Assembly: GCA_029263395.1 (NCBI GenBank)
Contig: JAJCXO010000189.1
Span: 62,001-126,000, forward strand
DNA length: 64,000 nucleotides
Reading direction: 5' to 3'
Source of the DNA: Acidobacteriota bacterium
GTDB taxonomy: Bacteria > Acidobacteriota > Thermoanaerobaculia > Multivoradales > J023
Made by a program: the position numbers and the translations under genes. Under the pieces are notes generated by a model, which searched no databases, was not told the DNA's origin, and saw nothing but the letters and a program-made list of their open reading frames with translations. How positions within the stretch are numbered: the first letter of the stretch is position 1; each line of letters begins with the position of its first letter. Of this stretch, positions 41,805 to 61,538 are shown piece by piece.

Positions 41805-42704
41805 TTAGAGGGCTTCCCGCGTCCCCAACTCGACCATTCCCTGCCGCTCCAGCTCGACCAGGACTTCGGACGGCCAACCATCGACTAACGCTTCCGCGGT
41901 CAACGTCACGAAGCGCGCCCCAACTTGCCGACAAGCCTGGCGCCAACTCTCGCGGAGGGTGCCGAGGGTTCTACGATAATCCTCAACCGCCGGTTGATCT
42001 ATGAACACGTCACGCAACTCGCCGGTTTCGGCGTCCTCCAGACGGCTGAAGCCTGTCACAGATGGTTCTATCTCCTTTGCCGCTAGTACTTGCACGACCC
42101 ACAACGCCGCAGCTCCTCGCGAGATTCGGCCAAGCAGCCGTTGTGGCTCGTCACGCCACAGCAGATCCGAGATCAGGATACGAATCCCTCCTGGACGCCA
42201 GCGTGGTGGCAGCCGTTCGACCGACGCCGGTAAACTACCTCGATAGTCAAAATCTACTCCGTCCCAATGCTGAGCCGACTGGCCGGGTTCCGCTAACCGT
42301 CGACAGCCCTCCCCAGCTTGCCAGGCAGCCTGGCTGAGACCGGCATGGGTTGCAGCACGGGCGAAGAAGGCCATCAGACCGATCGCAGCCCCCGCCTTGT
42401 CGGTACCGGCTAAAGCCATCGAACGCGAGCCGTCGATCAGTAGGTCGACGTGAGGCTGCACTTCTTCCCGGTAGAGTTTGACCACCAAGCGATCACTGCG
42501 AGCATATGCTGACCAGTCGAGATGGCGCAGATCATCGCCGGGCTGGTACTGACGATGATCCTGGAACTCCATCGAGCTACCGCTACGACGACCCAGCCGT
42601 GAGCTGCCAGCTGCTGCTCGCCGTGGCATCGTCAACACATAACGAGCCGCGGCGCGTTCCCCTTCTGCTATGAAACGTGGCTCCAGCATCGGCGACCTAT
42701 CCAT
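41805..42704 (-). CDS. DUF58 protein
   Basis: The 299-residue protein contains the DUF58 signature SMEFQDHRQYQPGDDLRHLDWSAYARSDRLVVKLYREE and a VWA-like core with DGSRS in DLLIDGSRSMALAGTDKA. DUF58 proteins are standard partners of MoxR ATPases. ATG 42704 overlaps the end of the permease gene (stop at 42697-42699), so it belongs to that operon. It lacks the N-terminal membrane helices found in many DUF58 proteins and seems cytoplasmic. A gap of 198 bp separates it from the methyltransferase gene, in which nothing is recognised. Confidence 0.85.
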   Translation of the reverse strand: MDRSPMLEPRFIAEGERAAARYVLTMPRRAAAGSSRLGRRSGSSMEFQDHRQYQPGDDLRHLDWSAYARSDRLVVKLYREEVQPHVDLLIDGSRSMALAGTDKAGAAIGLMAFFARAATHAGLSQAAWQAGEGCRRLAEPGQSAQHWDGVDFDYRGSLPASVERLPPRWRPGGIRILISDLLWRDEPQRLLGRISRGAAALWVVQVLAAKEIEPSVTGFSRLEDAETGELRDVFIDQPAVEDYRRTLGTLRESWRQACRQVGARFVTLTAEALVDGWPSEVLVELERQGMVELGTREAL

Positions 42705-44172
42705 CGCTGGGCATCGGCACAAATTGCCGGAATTGTGCCAGGAACCAGGATCGAGCCAACACCAACATCACCACCGCCCAACCCAGAGCGAATCGCATCG
42801 CGAAGGTGTCAAACGCATCGCTGTAAACCGAGAAGGGACTCAGGATCAACCACAGTCCGAACGTCATTGAACCGGCGACTGACTCCGGCGACAGCAGAAA
42901 GCCGATCATCGGCAGCAGCGCGCTGAACAAGGTGATCAGGATCAGGGCCAGCACCCAAGTCTGCGATCGCCGAACCCAAGGTGACAACCACCCCCGCTGC
43001 AGCAGCAACGCCAGCAACGCATAACTCAAGATATACGCACAGAAACCTAACTGAGGCCCAGCCAGCTCTTCGAACTCGACATTGAGCCGATGGTTGAAGA
43101 GCAGGTGGATTGCCGCGGTCAACGCCACCATCACCACCGCCCAAACCAGGCCATTGGCCGAGCCGCTGAACCACAGAAAAGCTGGACCACGAAACAGCTG
43201 CGATCGCGGCACCTCGGATGCGACTCTTTGAGTCATCTGATCGCGGGCGCAGATCGCCGACAGCATCACAACCGCAAAAAACCAGTAGATGACCAGTCCC
43301 CATACGGTGACCAGATCCTGCCGACCGTCTACGAAGCAGTCGACAGCCGCGCCAGCCGTCAACACCAACCAAGCCACCGTCACAAAACGCCGCACTGGCA
43401 ACGCCCGATTCGCAGTGGCCGGAGTCACCAACGCAACTGTCAACACGAACACCAGGCCAAACAAAACGCTGCAGATCACCACACTGAACAGGGTCGGTCC
43501 CCAAATGTTGGAACGCGTGAAGTAGCTCGCAACCCCGAGCTGCCGCAAGGCGAAAGCCAGGCCGAGCGAGACCGAGAGCAAGGTGATCAACCAGCCGAGT
43601 CCGGCCAGTGAGATCAGCAGCTTGAGAAGCTTTGACACCTGCAAGGACGCCAGGAACACCGCCGACAGAATGCCCGCTGCGGAGGCGACAAAACCTACTG
43701 CCAGTGCTGCAAACACAGTCGGTAAATCGATGCCACGCAAGAAGTAGGTGAAGCTCAAGTACGGCAGGCAGGCGCTGAACAACAGCAGTGTGACAATCAA
43801 GTTCGAGCCCAACTTGCCGGTGATGACACGGCTCGGAGACAGAGTCGAAATGTAGAAGAGCGCTAATCCGTGCCCGGAGCGTTCCGCCTGCATCCGCACC
43901 GCGGCATAAATCGGAATGCAGAACACCGCGGCGAAGAACAGCAGAGAAATCAAAATGCCGAAGACTTCCTCACCATAACTCGCTCCCTCGAGCAAGTTGA
44001 TGTCAGAGGTTCCCTTGGACATCAAATAGATACCCAGCGTCCCTAACTGGAAGCACAGAAATGCCAACAGAATCGACGGCAAGAATCGTCCGTGAACCGC
44101 CTGTCGTACCTCCTTGACAACAATCGGATTGACCGCGTCATCGAGCCACTCCATCCACCGCCGACCGCTCAT
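42697..44172 (-). CDS. ABC-2 type transporter permease
   Basis: A 491-residue membrane protein with about a dozen hydrophobic segments. The first part (NPIVVKEVRQAVHGRFLPSILLAFLCFQLGTLGIYLM) resembles the N-terminus of ABC-2 permeases, including the VKE-R motif; the segment SGHGLALFYISTLSPSRVITGKLGSNL is typical of Nat/ABC-2 exporters. It starts with ATG overlapping the TGA of the ATPase gene by 4 nt. With the ATPase it should form a two-gene exporter. The substrate is unknown. Confidence 0.85.
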   Translation of the reverse strand: MSGRRWMEWLDDAVNPIVVKEVRQAVHGRFLPSILLAFLCFQLGTLGIYLMSKGTSDINLLEGASYGEEVFGILISLLFFAAVFCIPIYAAVRMQAERSGHGLALFYISTLSPSRVITGKLGSNLIVTLLLFSACLPYLSFTYFLRGIDLPTVFAALAVGFVASAAGILSAVFLASLQVSKLLKLLISLAGLGWLITLLSVSLGLAFALRQLGVASYFTRSNIWGPTLFSVVICSVLFGLVFVLTVALVTPATANRALPVRRFVTVAWLVLTAGAAVDCFVDGRQDLVTVWGLVIYWFFAVVMLSAICARDQMTQRVASEVPRSQLFRGPAFLWFSGSANGLVWAVVMVALTAAIHLLFNHRLNVEFEELAGPQLGFCAYILSYALLALLLQRGWLSPWVRRSQTWVLALILITLFSALLPMIGFLLSPESVAGSMTFGLWLILSPFSVYSDAFDTFAMRFALGWAVVMLVLARSWFLAQFRQFVPMPSDG

Positions 44173-45098
44173 TGGACCTCACCGTCGGTGACGTTCATGA
44201 AAACCTCTTCTAGACCTCCTTGGCGCGGCTGGAACTCGATGACGCGATGGCCGGCCTGAATCAGATGCGCCAACACCTCCGCGGCGGCCTCTTCCCCACC
44301 TTCAATCTCGATCTCCAAACCGTCCCCAACTAGACGCGCTGTCTCGACACCCGGGATCGTCAACACCTCACGGTGCAACTCGGCAACCTCACCCAACGCT
44401 CGCAACCGTACGACGAGATGTTGCGTCCTGTCCTGCAACAAGTCGCGAATAGCACCAGCGCGCAGCATCCGACCGTGTTCCAAGATCACTGCACCGTGGC
44501 AGATCTCTGACAACTCGGTCAGAATGTGGGAGCTGATCAACACCGCCTTACCTTGCTCAGCAAGAACCAACAGTAGCTCTCGTAGCTCAACCCGTGCCCG
44601 CGGATCGAGCCCGGCTGCCGGCTCGTCGAGGATCAAGACACCGGGGTCGTGGATCAACGCCCGCGCCAAGCTGACGCGCTGTTTCATGCCCTTGGACAAG
44701 GTGTGGATCAGTTTGTGACGGATGCCGGCCAGGTTGGTGAAATCCTCAATGTCTGCCACCACGCGGCGTCTATGCCCGGCCCGCAGTCCATACGCTCGGG
44801 CAAAGAAGTCCAGGTAGTCGTCCACCGACATATCGCGGTGAGTCGGCAGTTGGTCGGGCATAAAACCGAGGGTCCGACGCGCCCACTCGGGCTGTTGGAC
44901 CAGCGACACGCCATCGAGCAGGGCATCTCCGGCGGTGGGTTCATCGAGGGTGGCGAGAATACGCATCGTGGTTGTCTTGCCGGCACCGTTTGGGCCGACG
45001 AACCCGTAAATTTCCCCCGCCGCGACCGAAAACGACACGTCATCGACCGCCTTGATGTCGCCAAACGAGCGTTTCAGGTGTTCAACGCGCAGTCTCAA
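44169..45098 (-). CDS. ABC transporter ATP-binding protein
   Basis: A 309-residue ATPase of the ABC-2/DRA family. Walker A is GPNGAGKTT near residue 34, the signature motif is LSKGMKQRVSLARAL near 140, and Walker B VLILDEPAAGLDPRARVE near 160, followed by ISSHILTELSEICHGAVIL. The C-terminal 80 residues form the usual regulatory extension (EVLAHLIQAGHRVIEFQPRQGGLEEVFMNVTDGE). The start is TTG 45098, the last and most diverged unit of a 17-bp tandem repeat whose earlier units all carry ATG. Its translation appears to depend on reinitiation from a mini-cistron. Confidence 0.92.
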   Translation of the reverse strand: MRLRVEHLKRSFGDIKAVDDVSFSVAAGEIYGFVGPNGAGKTTTMRILATLDEPTAGDALLDGVSLVQQPEWARRTLGFMPDQLPTHRDMSVDDYLDFFARAYGLRAGHRRRVVADIEDFTNLAGIRHKLIHTLSKGMKQRVSLARALIHDPGVLILDEPAAGLDPRARVELRELLLVLAEQGKAVLISSHILTELSEICHGAVILEHGRMLRAGAIRDLLQDRTQHLVVRLRALGEVAELHREVLTIPGVETARLVGDGLEIEIEGGEEAAAEVLAHLIQAGHRVIEFQPRQGGLEEVFMNVTDGEVQ

Positions 45099-45149
45099 AA
45101 TGCAACCCGTCTCATGACATAAACCGTCTCATGACACAAACCGTCTCAT
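45095..45149 (-). repeat. 17-bp tandem repeat forming three overlapping mini-cistrons
   Basis: Read on the minus strand, the units start at 45149, 45132, 45115 and 45098. The first is ATGAGACGGTTTGTGTC. Each ATG opens a frame of six codons plus stop: MRRFVS (45149-45129), MRRFMS (45132-45112), MRRVAF (45115-45095). Each stop overlaps the next start as ATGA, and the last as TTGA with the ABC ATPase start. The first ATG overlaps the stop codon of the GldG-like gene. Thus every stop-start step across this junction is a 4-nt overlap. Confidence 0.8.
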
Positions 45150-46942
45150 GGCCCAAGCTCCGCTGACGTTGGATCCGGCGAGATGCCATAAATGACCGTC
45201 GATCGTCTGTTTCGGTCGACCCGGTCTAGCCCATCCTCCAAGAAAGGCGTGTCGTCGGTGATTGCCAAGTAGGTTCCGGGACGCAAGAATTCTGCCGGCT
45301 CTTGCTCGAGTTGCAATGAGCGGCCCGGGAGGTCACCTTGGTAGATCCGACGTAGCGCATCGGCACCGCCCTTTGCAGTGTCCTCAGCCAGTTCGAGCGC
45401 AACCGACGCCCCCGCCGCCAACGGCTGATCGGCCCGATACAGACGACCGGACGGACCGGCAACCCACAACGCCTTGAGGCTGACTCCGAGCCCGTTTACC
45501 ACCTCCAGCCCGCCGTCCGCAGACCATCGCAGACTCAAACGTTCGCGGCGCTGTTCACTCTTGCGGACGATAAAGTACGACGGCAGACGCGCCCGCAGCC
45601 ATCCCTTGTCGAGATGCTGGGTTTCGCCCCAGGCTATCGAGCGCGAGATGTCCTGGGGTTTATCACCGGTCCATGCCAAAACCGGCGAGACCTCGGTCTC
45701 GAGGCCGAATCTCAGGCCATCCCCAGGCGTCAAGGTCGCATAGTAGCCAGCCCAGCCGTAACTGGTCGCCCGGTGCAACCGTTCGTCGAGCACGGTCACC
45801 ACTTCAGACCGTTGGAAACGGACCACTCCTTCTTTTGCCAAAACCCAACCCATCACGGCCAGACAGGCAAGGAGCGAAAGCCCCGGCACCGTCCACAACA
45901 GCCACATTCGCCGGTTGCGTCGTGACAGCCAGATCAGATTGACCGGCCCGATCAAGATCGTGAACAACAACACAACCACAAACAAACTGCGCACCGGAAC
46001 TTCGATTTTGGCTGCAACCGGAAATTGTCGATGCATCGAGACCGGATCTCGCGCCCGGGCCCAAGGCTCACGGCTGCGGTGCCAGGCCGCCTCAAGGCGA
46101 TCCACTTGGCCCGGGCTTGCGGCCGCCACGGTTGCTGCCTCGGCGCTGAGCACCACACCAAAGCCAACGTAGTCGACGTCGACGCCCTGCTCGAACGCCG
46201 ACGCCTGGGCCCGCCTTCGACGCTGGCTGAGCCACGGGCTGTCTGCCGGTGCGCTTCCCAAGCTGACCAAAACGCCGCCCGTCTCGACGTAATGCCACAA
46301 AGCTTCCAACACCGCTCGCGGGGCCTGTTCCAACTCCCCAACCGTCGTCACGATGCCATCGTACCCAGAGTACGCCAGCCAGTTCTCGCTCCATGCCGAC
46401 AACCCTATCGTGGCGCGTGAGACACGGTAGTCGTCGTCGGAATGGGGTGGGAAGCTGTCCTCGTCCAATCGTTGGCTGATCAGCAGACGCCGAGAATCAG
46501 GCCCGAGGCTCGGGATGTGCCGCGGATTGCCGACCCAATACTCGGGATGGGCGGAGACCCAAGGCACGAGCTCGCGCTGCAACTGACCGTCGAGCCGCAC
46601 CTCGAGGCTGTTGCCGAAAACCGGCAACGGTGGCTGGACAAGATCAAGGCGAGCCGTTGAACCCGGTCCGACGGTGACGCTGCGCTCGATCTGGCTCAGG
46701 CCTTGGAGTCCGACATCAACCTGTGACGACTGGGGACCGGACAGCGTCACCCGGCGGGACGCCACCGGCGACTCATTGATCACCAAGAACGAAAATTCGT
46801 GGTAACCATGGGTGGTCGTCTGCGGCAAGTCCGGCAGCGGCCGGATGACCAAATCGCCGTAGCGGACCTCACGCGCCTCGGCCGGAGCTACGCCGAACCC
46901 TGATGCCACGATGCAGGTGACGAGAATCGCTACGATCTGCAT
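45146..46942 (-). CDS. GldG/DUF4350-like membrane protein of the ABC cluster
   Basis: A 598-residue protein. The N-terminal signal (QIVAILVTCIVASGFGVAPAEA) leads into an extracytoplasmic beta-rich region to about 160. A domain like the GATase-type ABC auxiliary domain follows, with YDGIVTTVGELEQAPRAVLEALWHYVETGGVLVSLG. Two membrane helices lie near 325-385 (LFVVVLLFTILIGPVNLIWL, WTVPGLSLLACLAVMGWVL), then a C-terminal beta-rich domain. Such proteins accompany ABC-2 exporters and MoxR genes. ATG 46942 opens the signal; the frame continues upstream through 15-bp repeats to TTG 47008 and is in frame with MoxR across one stop codon. Confidence 0.72.
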   Translation of the reverse strand: MQIVAILVTCIVASGFGVAPAEAREVRYGDLVIRPLPDLPQTTTHGYHEFSFLVINESPVASRRVTLSGPQSSQVDVGLQGLSQIERSVTVGPGSTARLDLVQPPLPVFGNSLEVRLDGQLQRELVPWVSAHPEYWVGNPRHIPSLGPDSRRLLISQRLDEDSFPPHSDDDYRVSRATIGLSAWSENWLAYSGYDGIVTTVGELEQAPRAVLEALWHYVETGGVLVSLGSAPADSPWLSQRRRRAQASAFEQGVDVDYVGFGVVLSAEAATVAAASPGQVDRLEAAWHRSREPWARARDPVSMHRQFPVAAKIEVPVRSLFVVVLLFTILIGPVNLIWLSRRNRRMWLLWTVPGLSLLACLAVMGWVLAKEGVVRFQRSEVVTVLDERLHRATSYGWAGYYATLTPGDGLRFGLETEVSPVLAWTGDKPQDISRSIAWGETQHLDKGWLRARLPSYFIVRKSEQRRERLSLRWSADGGLEVVNGLGVSLKALWVAGPSGRLYRADQPLAAGASVALELAEDTAKGGADALRRIYQGDLPGRSLQLEQEPAEFLRPGTYLAITDDTPFLEDGLDRVDRNRRSTVIYGISPDPTSAELGP

Positions 46943-46963
46943 CCTGCCAGCAATCACCGGCAA

Positions 46964-47008
46964 GACACCGTCAGCCACGACACCGTCAGTTGAGGCGCCG
47001 TCAGCCAA
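46964..47008 (-). repeat. 15-bp tandem repeat between MoxR and the GldG-like gene
   Basis: Three 15-bp units read on the minus strand: TTGGCTGACGGCGCC, TCAACTGACGGTGTC, GTGGCTGACGGTGTC. They are followed by a truncated fourth, and a related piece precedes them across the MoxR stop codon. The length keeps one reading frame open and codes a pentapeptide pattern (LADGA / STDGV / VADGV). Confidence 0.75.
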
Positions 47009-47014
47009 GACGCC

Positions 47015-61169: not shown

Positions 61170-61196
61170 GGGCCCAGGCTGGACTACTCCGGGCCC

Positions 61197-61538
61197 GTCA
61201 GTGTCAAGCGGCATCTACCGCTAGACCTTTCCGAGGTGGGTGAACGTCAAGCGACACCGTCTGCTTGACTTCTCCGAGCCTGGTCAGCGTCAAGTGACAT
61301 CGCCCGCTTGACTTCTCCGAGCCATGTCAACGTCAAGCAGCAATATCTGCTTGATTTCTCTACACCACCTCAGGGTCAGCGACATCGTCTGCTCGACTCT
61401 TTCGAGGCACGTCAACGTCAAGCGACATCCTCTGCTTGACTTCTCCATGCTTCGTCAAGGTCAAGCGGCAACCTCTGCTTGGCTTCTCCGGGCCATCCCC
61501 GCGTCCAGCAGGATCTGTGTGCATCGAAACCTGAGCCC
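61197..61538. repeat. 43-bp tandem array with an inverted repeat in each unit
   Basis: Seven units start at 61197, 61240, 61283, 61326, 61369, 61411 and 61454; all are 43 bp except the fifth (42 bp). A decayed eighth follows to about 61538, and the end of a possible earlier unit lies at 61180-61196. The common core is GTCAAGCGACAT, then TCTGCTTGACTTCTCCG. GTCAAGC pairs with GCTTGAC within each unit around a loop of about 10 nt. Units differ at several positions, mostly in the loop and the 3' end. Confidence 0.85.

Follow-up and report, generated by a model that had tools for sequence, protein, structure and literature searches.

What becomes of translation when a short tandem array comes to lie on the junction between two genes? 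The question is raised by one gene pair in the 64,000-nucleotide stretch of DNA analysed here (the window; source genome G000), whose array (C189) is read on the minus strand throughout. Three 17-bp units begin at 45149 (ATGAGACGGTTTGTGTC), 45132 (ATGAGACGGTTTATGTC) and 45115 (ATGAGACGGGTTGCATT), as the first-pass annotation had placed them and as we confirm to the base, and the start of the ATPase gene follows at 45098 (TTGAGACTGCGCGTTGA). Each unit opens a mini-ORF of six codons and a stop (21 nt), and the step from one to the next is 17 nt, with 4-nt xTGA overlaps that read, in order, ATGA, ATGA and TTGA. This stop-on-start chain, its first ATG overlapping the TGA of the upstream gene (45148-45146), was likewise borne out by the minus-strand letters. 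Such an overlap is present at every link, as in gene pairs coupled by termination-reinitiation, and the upstream TGA and the ATPase TTG are separated by a 47-nt gap (Table 1).

The array is a genuine tandem repeat and not a chance match, since it is found by TRF (period 17, 2.8 copies, 90% matches, score 82); with a short unit in head-to-tail tandem copies, it is built like a minisatellite (VNTR). Units 1 and 3 differ at 4 of 17 positions. A diverged fourth copy had also been proposed at 45098. The TTG there is indeed the ATPase start, but the supposed copy is the gene's own start: the segment shares 9 of 17 positions with unit 1, the majority of them among its first seven bases, and its counterpart in the alignment with relatives is their ATG-AGG start. 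The chain of stops and starts arises by itself on duplication, because 17 is 2 mod 3. Since any duplication of an ATGA segment with a length of 2 mod 3 makes such a chain, the finding in the window, taken alone, would be ordinary.

Table 1. Features at and around the junction, in minus-strand order.
Feature	Position	Strand	Remarks
Second array, MoxR/upstream-gene junction, 15-bp units (TTGGCTGACGGTGTC type)	46961..47011	-	Found by TRF; absent in L009 (G001)
Upstream gene, 620-codon ORF, no family match	45146..47008	-	True start uncertain within 46940-47008; L009 ortholog ends at ATGA overlap
GGAG, Shine-Dalgarno-like	45158..45161	-	8 nt before ATG 45149; same spacing before ATPase ATG in same-genus relative
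Insertion, 51 bp (3 x 17), between upstream stop and ATPase start	45099..45149	-	Missing in L006/L009 (G001) and L007 (G002); TRF
Mini-ORF 1	45129..45149	-	ATG AGA CGG TTT GTG TCA TGA, peptide MRRFVS*
Mini-ORF 2	45112..45132	-	ATG AGA CGG TTT ATG TCA TGA, peptide MRRFMS*
Mini-ORF 3	45095..45115	-	ATG AGA CGG GTT GCA TTT TGA, peptide MRRVAF*; stop overlaps ATPase TTG start
ABC transporter ATPase, 309 aa, TTG start	44169..45098	-	ATG start in two nearest relatives
Downstream membrane protein	42697..44172	-	ATGA overlap with ATPase stop

The gene behind the array is, as had been annotated, certainly that of an ABC ATPase by its sequence (Pfam ABC_tran, 9e-29); its best NCBIfam models, GldA and DrrA, both score under their cut-offs. 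Over 309 codons, comparison with the same-genus relative G001 gives a pN of 0.10 and a pS of 0.61. The ATPase is thus under purifying selection and must be translated somehow. The start call at 45098 is right, since relatives begin M-R-L at the same place. The upstream protein matched no family in Pfam (E<=0.001) or in NCBIfam (E<=0.01), and the name "GldG-like" given to it earlier has no support at these thresholds. The second array, at 46961-47011, would lengthen the N-terminus of this protein in frame.

A search for the ATPase among 40 relatives returned four genomes at E<=1e-60, the source genome among them. In G001 (public contig JAJCXQ010000886.1; 82% identity) and in G002, of the same family (66%), the ATPase ATG directly overlaps the upstream TGA as ATGA, with GGAG or GGGGGAG upstream and no repeat unit, so that the unit number between species is three in the window genome versus zero in both relatives. 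G003 (39%) has a different gene context and is not comparable at the junction; a more distant Pirellulaceae homolog (L014, 53%) has the ATGA overlap at the junction, and other loci differ. Among 74 relative loci, 11 junctions were read, and the window array was present in none. The conservation check proposed with the original annotation therefore went against it: in both nearest relatives the ATPase begins with a normal ATG, preceded by a better Shine-Dalgarno match, and the repeat is missing, and by sequence comparison the array is not conserved at the ATPase locus. The empty ATGA site in G001 and G002, together with the absence of the array from all junctions read, indicates that the three units were gained in the window's lineage, where the ATG evidently turned into TTG. 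G001 (L009) is recorded as Acidobacteriota and the next best ATPase relatives as Planctomycetota, which reflects either a transferred operon or a label issue.

Initiation signals were compared as anti-Shine-Dalgarno energies, with the anti-SD sequence assumed and not read from the 16S, and with 1016 called genes and random sites as the comparison set. Unit 1 gives -5.8, units 2 and 3 -3.8 and the ATPase TTG -4.0, against a median of -3.8 for called genes (n=1016) and -2.7 for random sites; the relatives' ATPase ATG gives -6.6 (same-genus relative) and -8.4. The good Shine-Dalgarno sequence has stayed before unit 1, and the ATPase TTG has a weaker one of its own, which makes direct initiation there possible. 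No RNA structure was detected at the junction (z +1.81; 199 of 200 shuffles fold as well or better).

The window array is one of a recurrent class in G000 and some of its relatives. Seven repeated xTGA chains, the window's included, lie in 1,078,229 bases of G000; elsewhere there were none in 142,550 bases of G001, none in 117,720 bases of G002 and two, one of low complexity, in mixed loci. A twin of the window array, also a 3 x 17 chain, occupies the trpE-trpG junction (chorismate-binding enzyme and glutamine amidotransferase by Pfam). The products of these two genes form a complex, and trpG has matches in 37 of 40 genomes, its own included. Genome-wide in G000, four DTGA at spacing 17 gave 22 matches, corresponding to 12 distinct arrays, versus 11 in a reversed-pattern control, an enrichment of about twofold only; this pattern is matched in 7 of 40 genomes. 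Matches versus control at the other spacings were 1 vs 1 (13), 5 vs 0 (14), 22 vs 20 (15), 25 vs 1 (16), 19 vs 15 (18), 0 vs 7 (19) and 0 vs 0 (20). On these counts xTGA arrays in themselves are not tied to a single phase; location is what stands out.

Location was put to a phase test on arrays of spacing 13, 14, 16 and 17 in seven genomes, with genes scored by G000-trained codon usage. The test asked whether the array carries both a gene stop and a gene start, and whether a complete hop path leads from gene to gene. Both flanks were on the array in 11 of 34 arrays of period 14 or 17 versus 1 of 18 of period 13 or 16 (Fisher 0.039). Complete relays numbered 11 of 34 at 2 mod 3 versus 0 of 18 at 1 mod 3 (Fisher 0.0095), a bias that is partly built in, as the search demands xTGA and a period of 2 mod 3 favours a complete path. 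The bias was not significant with only the gene start required (16/34 vs 4/18, p 0.13) or only the gene stop (14/34 vs 4/18, p 0.23); the phase tests are all small, and several were tried. The test left out two spacing-20 matches, one spacing-19 match, C51 as read on its other strand, and the nine arrays of spacing 17 from G006, G018 and G021, genomes in which the search did not extend to spacings 13, 14 and 16. Put through it afterwards, G018 C60 proved to be a complete relay, a twelfth. G021 C90 was returned as one too, but no on-array start begins a called gene there, the chain having reached an off-array frame; none of the others was complete.

The 11 complete relays are G000 C30 (trpE-trpG), C61, C187, C189 (the window) and C285, G001 C67, G002 C54, C4 and C50, and G008 C106 and C217, with one to five hops each. 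Their flanks, as named by Pfam, include trpE to trpG, methyltransferase to glycosyltransferase, glycosyltransferase to epimerase, and phosphatidylserine decarboxylase to CDP-alcohol transferase. The weakest and most doubtful members are C187 (one hop, near-random units), C4 (followed, by eye, by a hairpin-like stretch) and C285 (upstream ORF of 115 aa with no family). The clearest case of divergence is G002 C50, where five GTGA follow each other at 14-nt steps in near-random filler, between a response regulator/SpoIIE phosphatase gene and a YhhN gene. Identity outside the xTGA has a median of 0.77 in complete relays versus 0.90 and 0.92 in other arrays (two-sided p 0.022). Selection acting on the steps would produce such a pattern, although every array has xTGA by the terms of the search. 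Few arrays have CTGA; the search ignores the outer bases, and the difference between CTGA and DTGA usage is too small to use. Array units resemble the start of their own gene at 6.4 of 13 positions versus 4.3 when permuted (p 0.0003), which fits local duplication of start segments and not a mobile element. The likeness of the window units to the ATPase start is weak (6/13), as is the likeness of units between loci (4.06/13 vs 3.40 shuffled, p 0.003).

Mini-ORFs also bridge genes without repeats. In a census with crude gene calls, xTGA hops were followed from 400 DTGA gene stops in 1,798,229 bases. The next gene was reached directly from 131 stops, through one mini-ORF from 29, through two from six, through three from two (the window and trpE-trpG) and through five from one. 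DTGA sites started a gene in 36 of 105 cases on the chain versus 253 of 1182 off it (Mantel-Haenszel odds 1.85, chi-square 7.0). Within 20 nt of the stop, single bridges numbered 17/32 versus 13/53 in matched controls lacking the first start codon (p 0.010); overall they numbered 29/88 versus 40/181 (p 0.07), with no excess beyond 20 nt. Bridging by one mini-cistron looks like a genuine junction type of modest extent, and most longer bridges may be due to chance.

Short arrays are common in this genome. With periods of 10-30, at least 2.5 copies and overlapping rows counted, there are 12.3 per 100 kb in G000 (424,303 bases), 6.3 in G001, 6.8 in G002, 8.4 in G006 (23,817 bases only) and 1.2 in 73 mixed loci (587,617 bases). 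Among 343 arrays of period 10-30 in 1,798,229 bases, 169 lie within called genes, 146 of them with periods that are multiples of three. Stop-overlapping arrays with no near downstream gene split 7/7/7 by phase. The count of TRF arrays bridging a junction (6/2/2 for 0/1/2 mod 3) is too small for a test by phase, and neither of the two at 1 mod 3 has a downstream start directly on the array.

Several arrays of other kinds were noted alongside. A near-identical 16-bp array (GTGACGCTTGGTGACG) forms a dispersed minisatellite at G000 C127:3995, C200:12448 and C230:24807 (L219, L228, L317). In G002, a 15-bp array (L115:7754-7819) adjoins the matched part of the ATPase ortholog, apparently within its C-terminal coding region. 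A period of 41-43 bp, about four helical turns, recurs in 28 arrays in 1,078,229 bases. Seven of these are intergenic by the crude caller (window 61178-61495; L084:5838-6013; L085:10402-10542; L094:19238-19500; L095:11617-11766; L097:361-515; L099:2449-2583), each with a different sequence and several, by eye, with an inverted repeat inside. At L085:10410-10533 (plus strand), three 41-bp units are chained by xTGA overlaps (41 being 2 mod 3) in a stretch called intergenic.

The reading we lean towards, with considerable reserve, is local duplication of start-codon segments, tolerated or kept since a termination-reinitiation relay preserves coupling. The start-codon segment at an ancestral ATGA overlap would have been tandemly duplicated in the window lineage, as in the birth of a minisatellite. 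With a unit length of 2 mod 3, each duplicated start would open a mini-cistron of six codons, ending in a TGA that overlaps the start after it. Ribosomes ending the upstream gene would then most likely terminate and reinitiate in 17-nt steps until they reach the ATPase across the gap, each step probably costing some of them. Arrays that break coupling would be selected against, and those that keep it tolerated or kept. In E. coli, according to the accessible text of PMC10666635, the last 15 nt of the upstream gene are enough for coupling, and with 38 nt between the genes coupling falls by 80-90% or is lost. An untranslated gap of 47 nt should therefore uncouple the ATPase, and chained overlaps would keep it coupled. 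The relay that the first-pass annotation had suggested survives in part: its layout is confirmed and is repeated at other junctions in the required phase, but the array has no counterpart at the relatives' ATPase locus. RRF depletion leaves coupling unchanged in E. coli (PMC7538156, accessible text), a finding at odds with reinitiation by the same ribosome as a general mechanism; passing ribosomes may instead hold sites open, and the mini-ORFs could equally serve this.

The relay reading must be weighed against a neutral one, in which the array is a by-product of a slippage-prone genome and the ATPase is begun directly at its TTG, either by 30S subunits or through nearby translation that keeps the mRNA open. 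The high density of short arrays in G000 fits this account, as do the weak anti-SD match of the TTG itself and the even phase split of stop-overlapping arrays with no near downstream gene; the preponderance of multiples of three in coding arrays suggests that mutation pressure with selection is general. Against it stand the phase difference at gene junctions, the greater divergence of complete relays, and an ATPase start that is a TTG with a poorer Shine-Dalgarno sequence than the relatives' ATG. We regard neutrality as the less likely of the two, though a possibility of some weight. It is improbable that the array is a selected, tunable attenuator in which slippage alters the copy number and so sets the ratio of ATPase to upstream protein. 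The relay layout, the difference in copy number between the window genome and two relatives, and the recurrence at trpE-trpG would suit such a device, but the divergence already present between units 1 and 3 lowers slippage, and no copy-number variation was seen within the species, for which one assembly provides one consensus MAG sequence.

Insertion of a mobile repeat at a DTGA site, as with the MIRUs of mycobacteria, would account for the target, the layout and the slight likeness of units between loci, yet the units resemble their own gene start. Besides units 1 and 2 themselves, a search of 10.7 Mb for the window unit at <=2 mismatches returned just two isolated matches; with no dispersed family at that threshold, a MIRU-type mobile family was rejected for this unit, and we hold the insertion reading to be very improbable. 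We give least credence to an assembly artefact or to an element that acts as DNA, with operator palindromes around TCATGA, or as RNA, in the form of a structured leader. By eye, an imperfect palindrome does mark every unit border, but the RNA is unstructured and other loci keep the xTGA and not the palindrome; the array is also far shorter than ordinary reads, and its units differ, which argues against collapse.

A bolder version of the preferred relay reading, which we think doubtful, is that in this lineage tandem mini-cistron arrays are a functional, repeatedly born regulatory device, in which the protein ratio of neighbouring genes (trpE-trpG, the ABC ATPase, lipid-synthesis genes) is set by how many steps there are and by their quality, and selection keeps the xTGA phase long after the filler has decayed. 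If the relay works, bacteria can use a series of very short cistrons to span a distance at which coupling should be lost, and under a simple rule (a period of 2 mod 3 at an ATGA site) slippage can generate relays without cost to the operon. The arrays would then also be natural constructs of one to five steps for measuring how often ribosomes terminate and restart consecutively, a measurement that bears on the dispute between reinitiation and independent initiation.

The copies of mycobacterial MIRUs chain to each other by overlaps. As described in the accessible part of a 2025 review (PMC12548453), MIRUs are repeats containing an ORF that is coupled, at -4 nt, to the gene downstream; for the senX3-regX3 junction, the accessible part of PMC4213456 reports three 77-bp MIRUs in H37Rv, and two of 77 and one of 53 bp in CDC1551. 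They are a described precedent for the layout, of which the original annotation knew no example. Like MIRUs, the window array is a tandem repeat at a translational-coupling site that is empty in relatives, its mini-ORF ends overlap the flanking genes at DTGA, and 77, 53 and 17 are all 2 mod 3. MIRUs differ in having longer units and in forming a family that is dispersed in mycobacteria and apparently mobile, whereas relay arrays have units of 14-17 bp that differ by locus and look locally born, here in a genome whose relatives are recorded as Acidobacteriota and Planctomycetota. The open-access library searched, which has few subscription papers, yielded no publication describing chains of tandem mini-ORFs on gene overlaps outside mycobacteria. 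Every link in the window is an overlap of the kind at which termination-reinitiation occurs (PMC6728339 and PMC10666635, accessible text); the relatives have a single one, to which the window adds three six-codon cistrons in series, and the accessible text of these coupling papers contains no test of such a series. The two-codon minigene before txe (PMC8708949, accessible text) likewise shows a tiny operon ORF altering translation of the next gene, with frame and distance mattering, but it is single and its effect is ascribed to mRNA protection. By its sequence, the window array appears to be a convergent, locally born relay array of short units, MIRU-like in layout and outside the MIRU family; if the relay works, a mycobacterial curiosity would extend to a convergent layout in unrelated bacteria.
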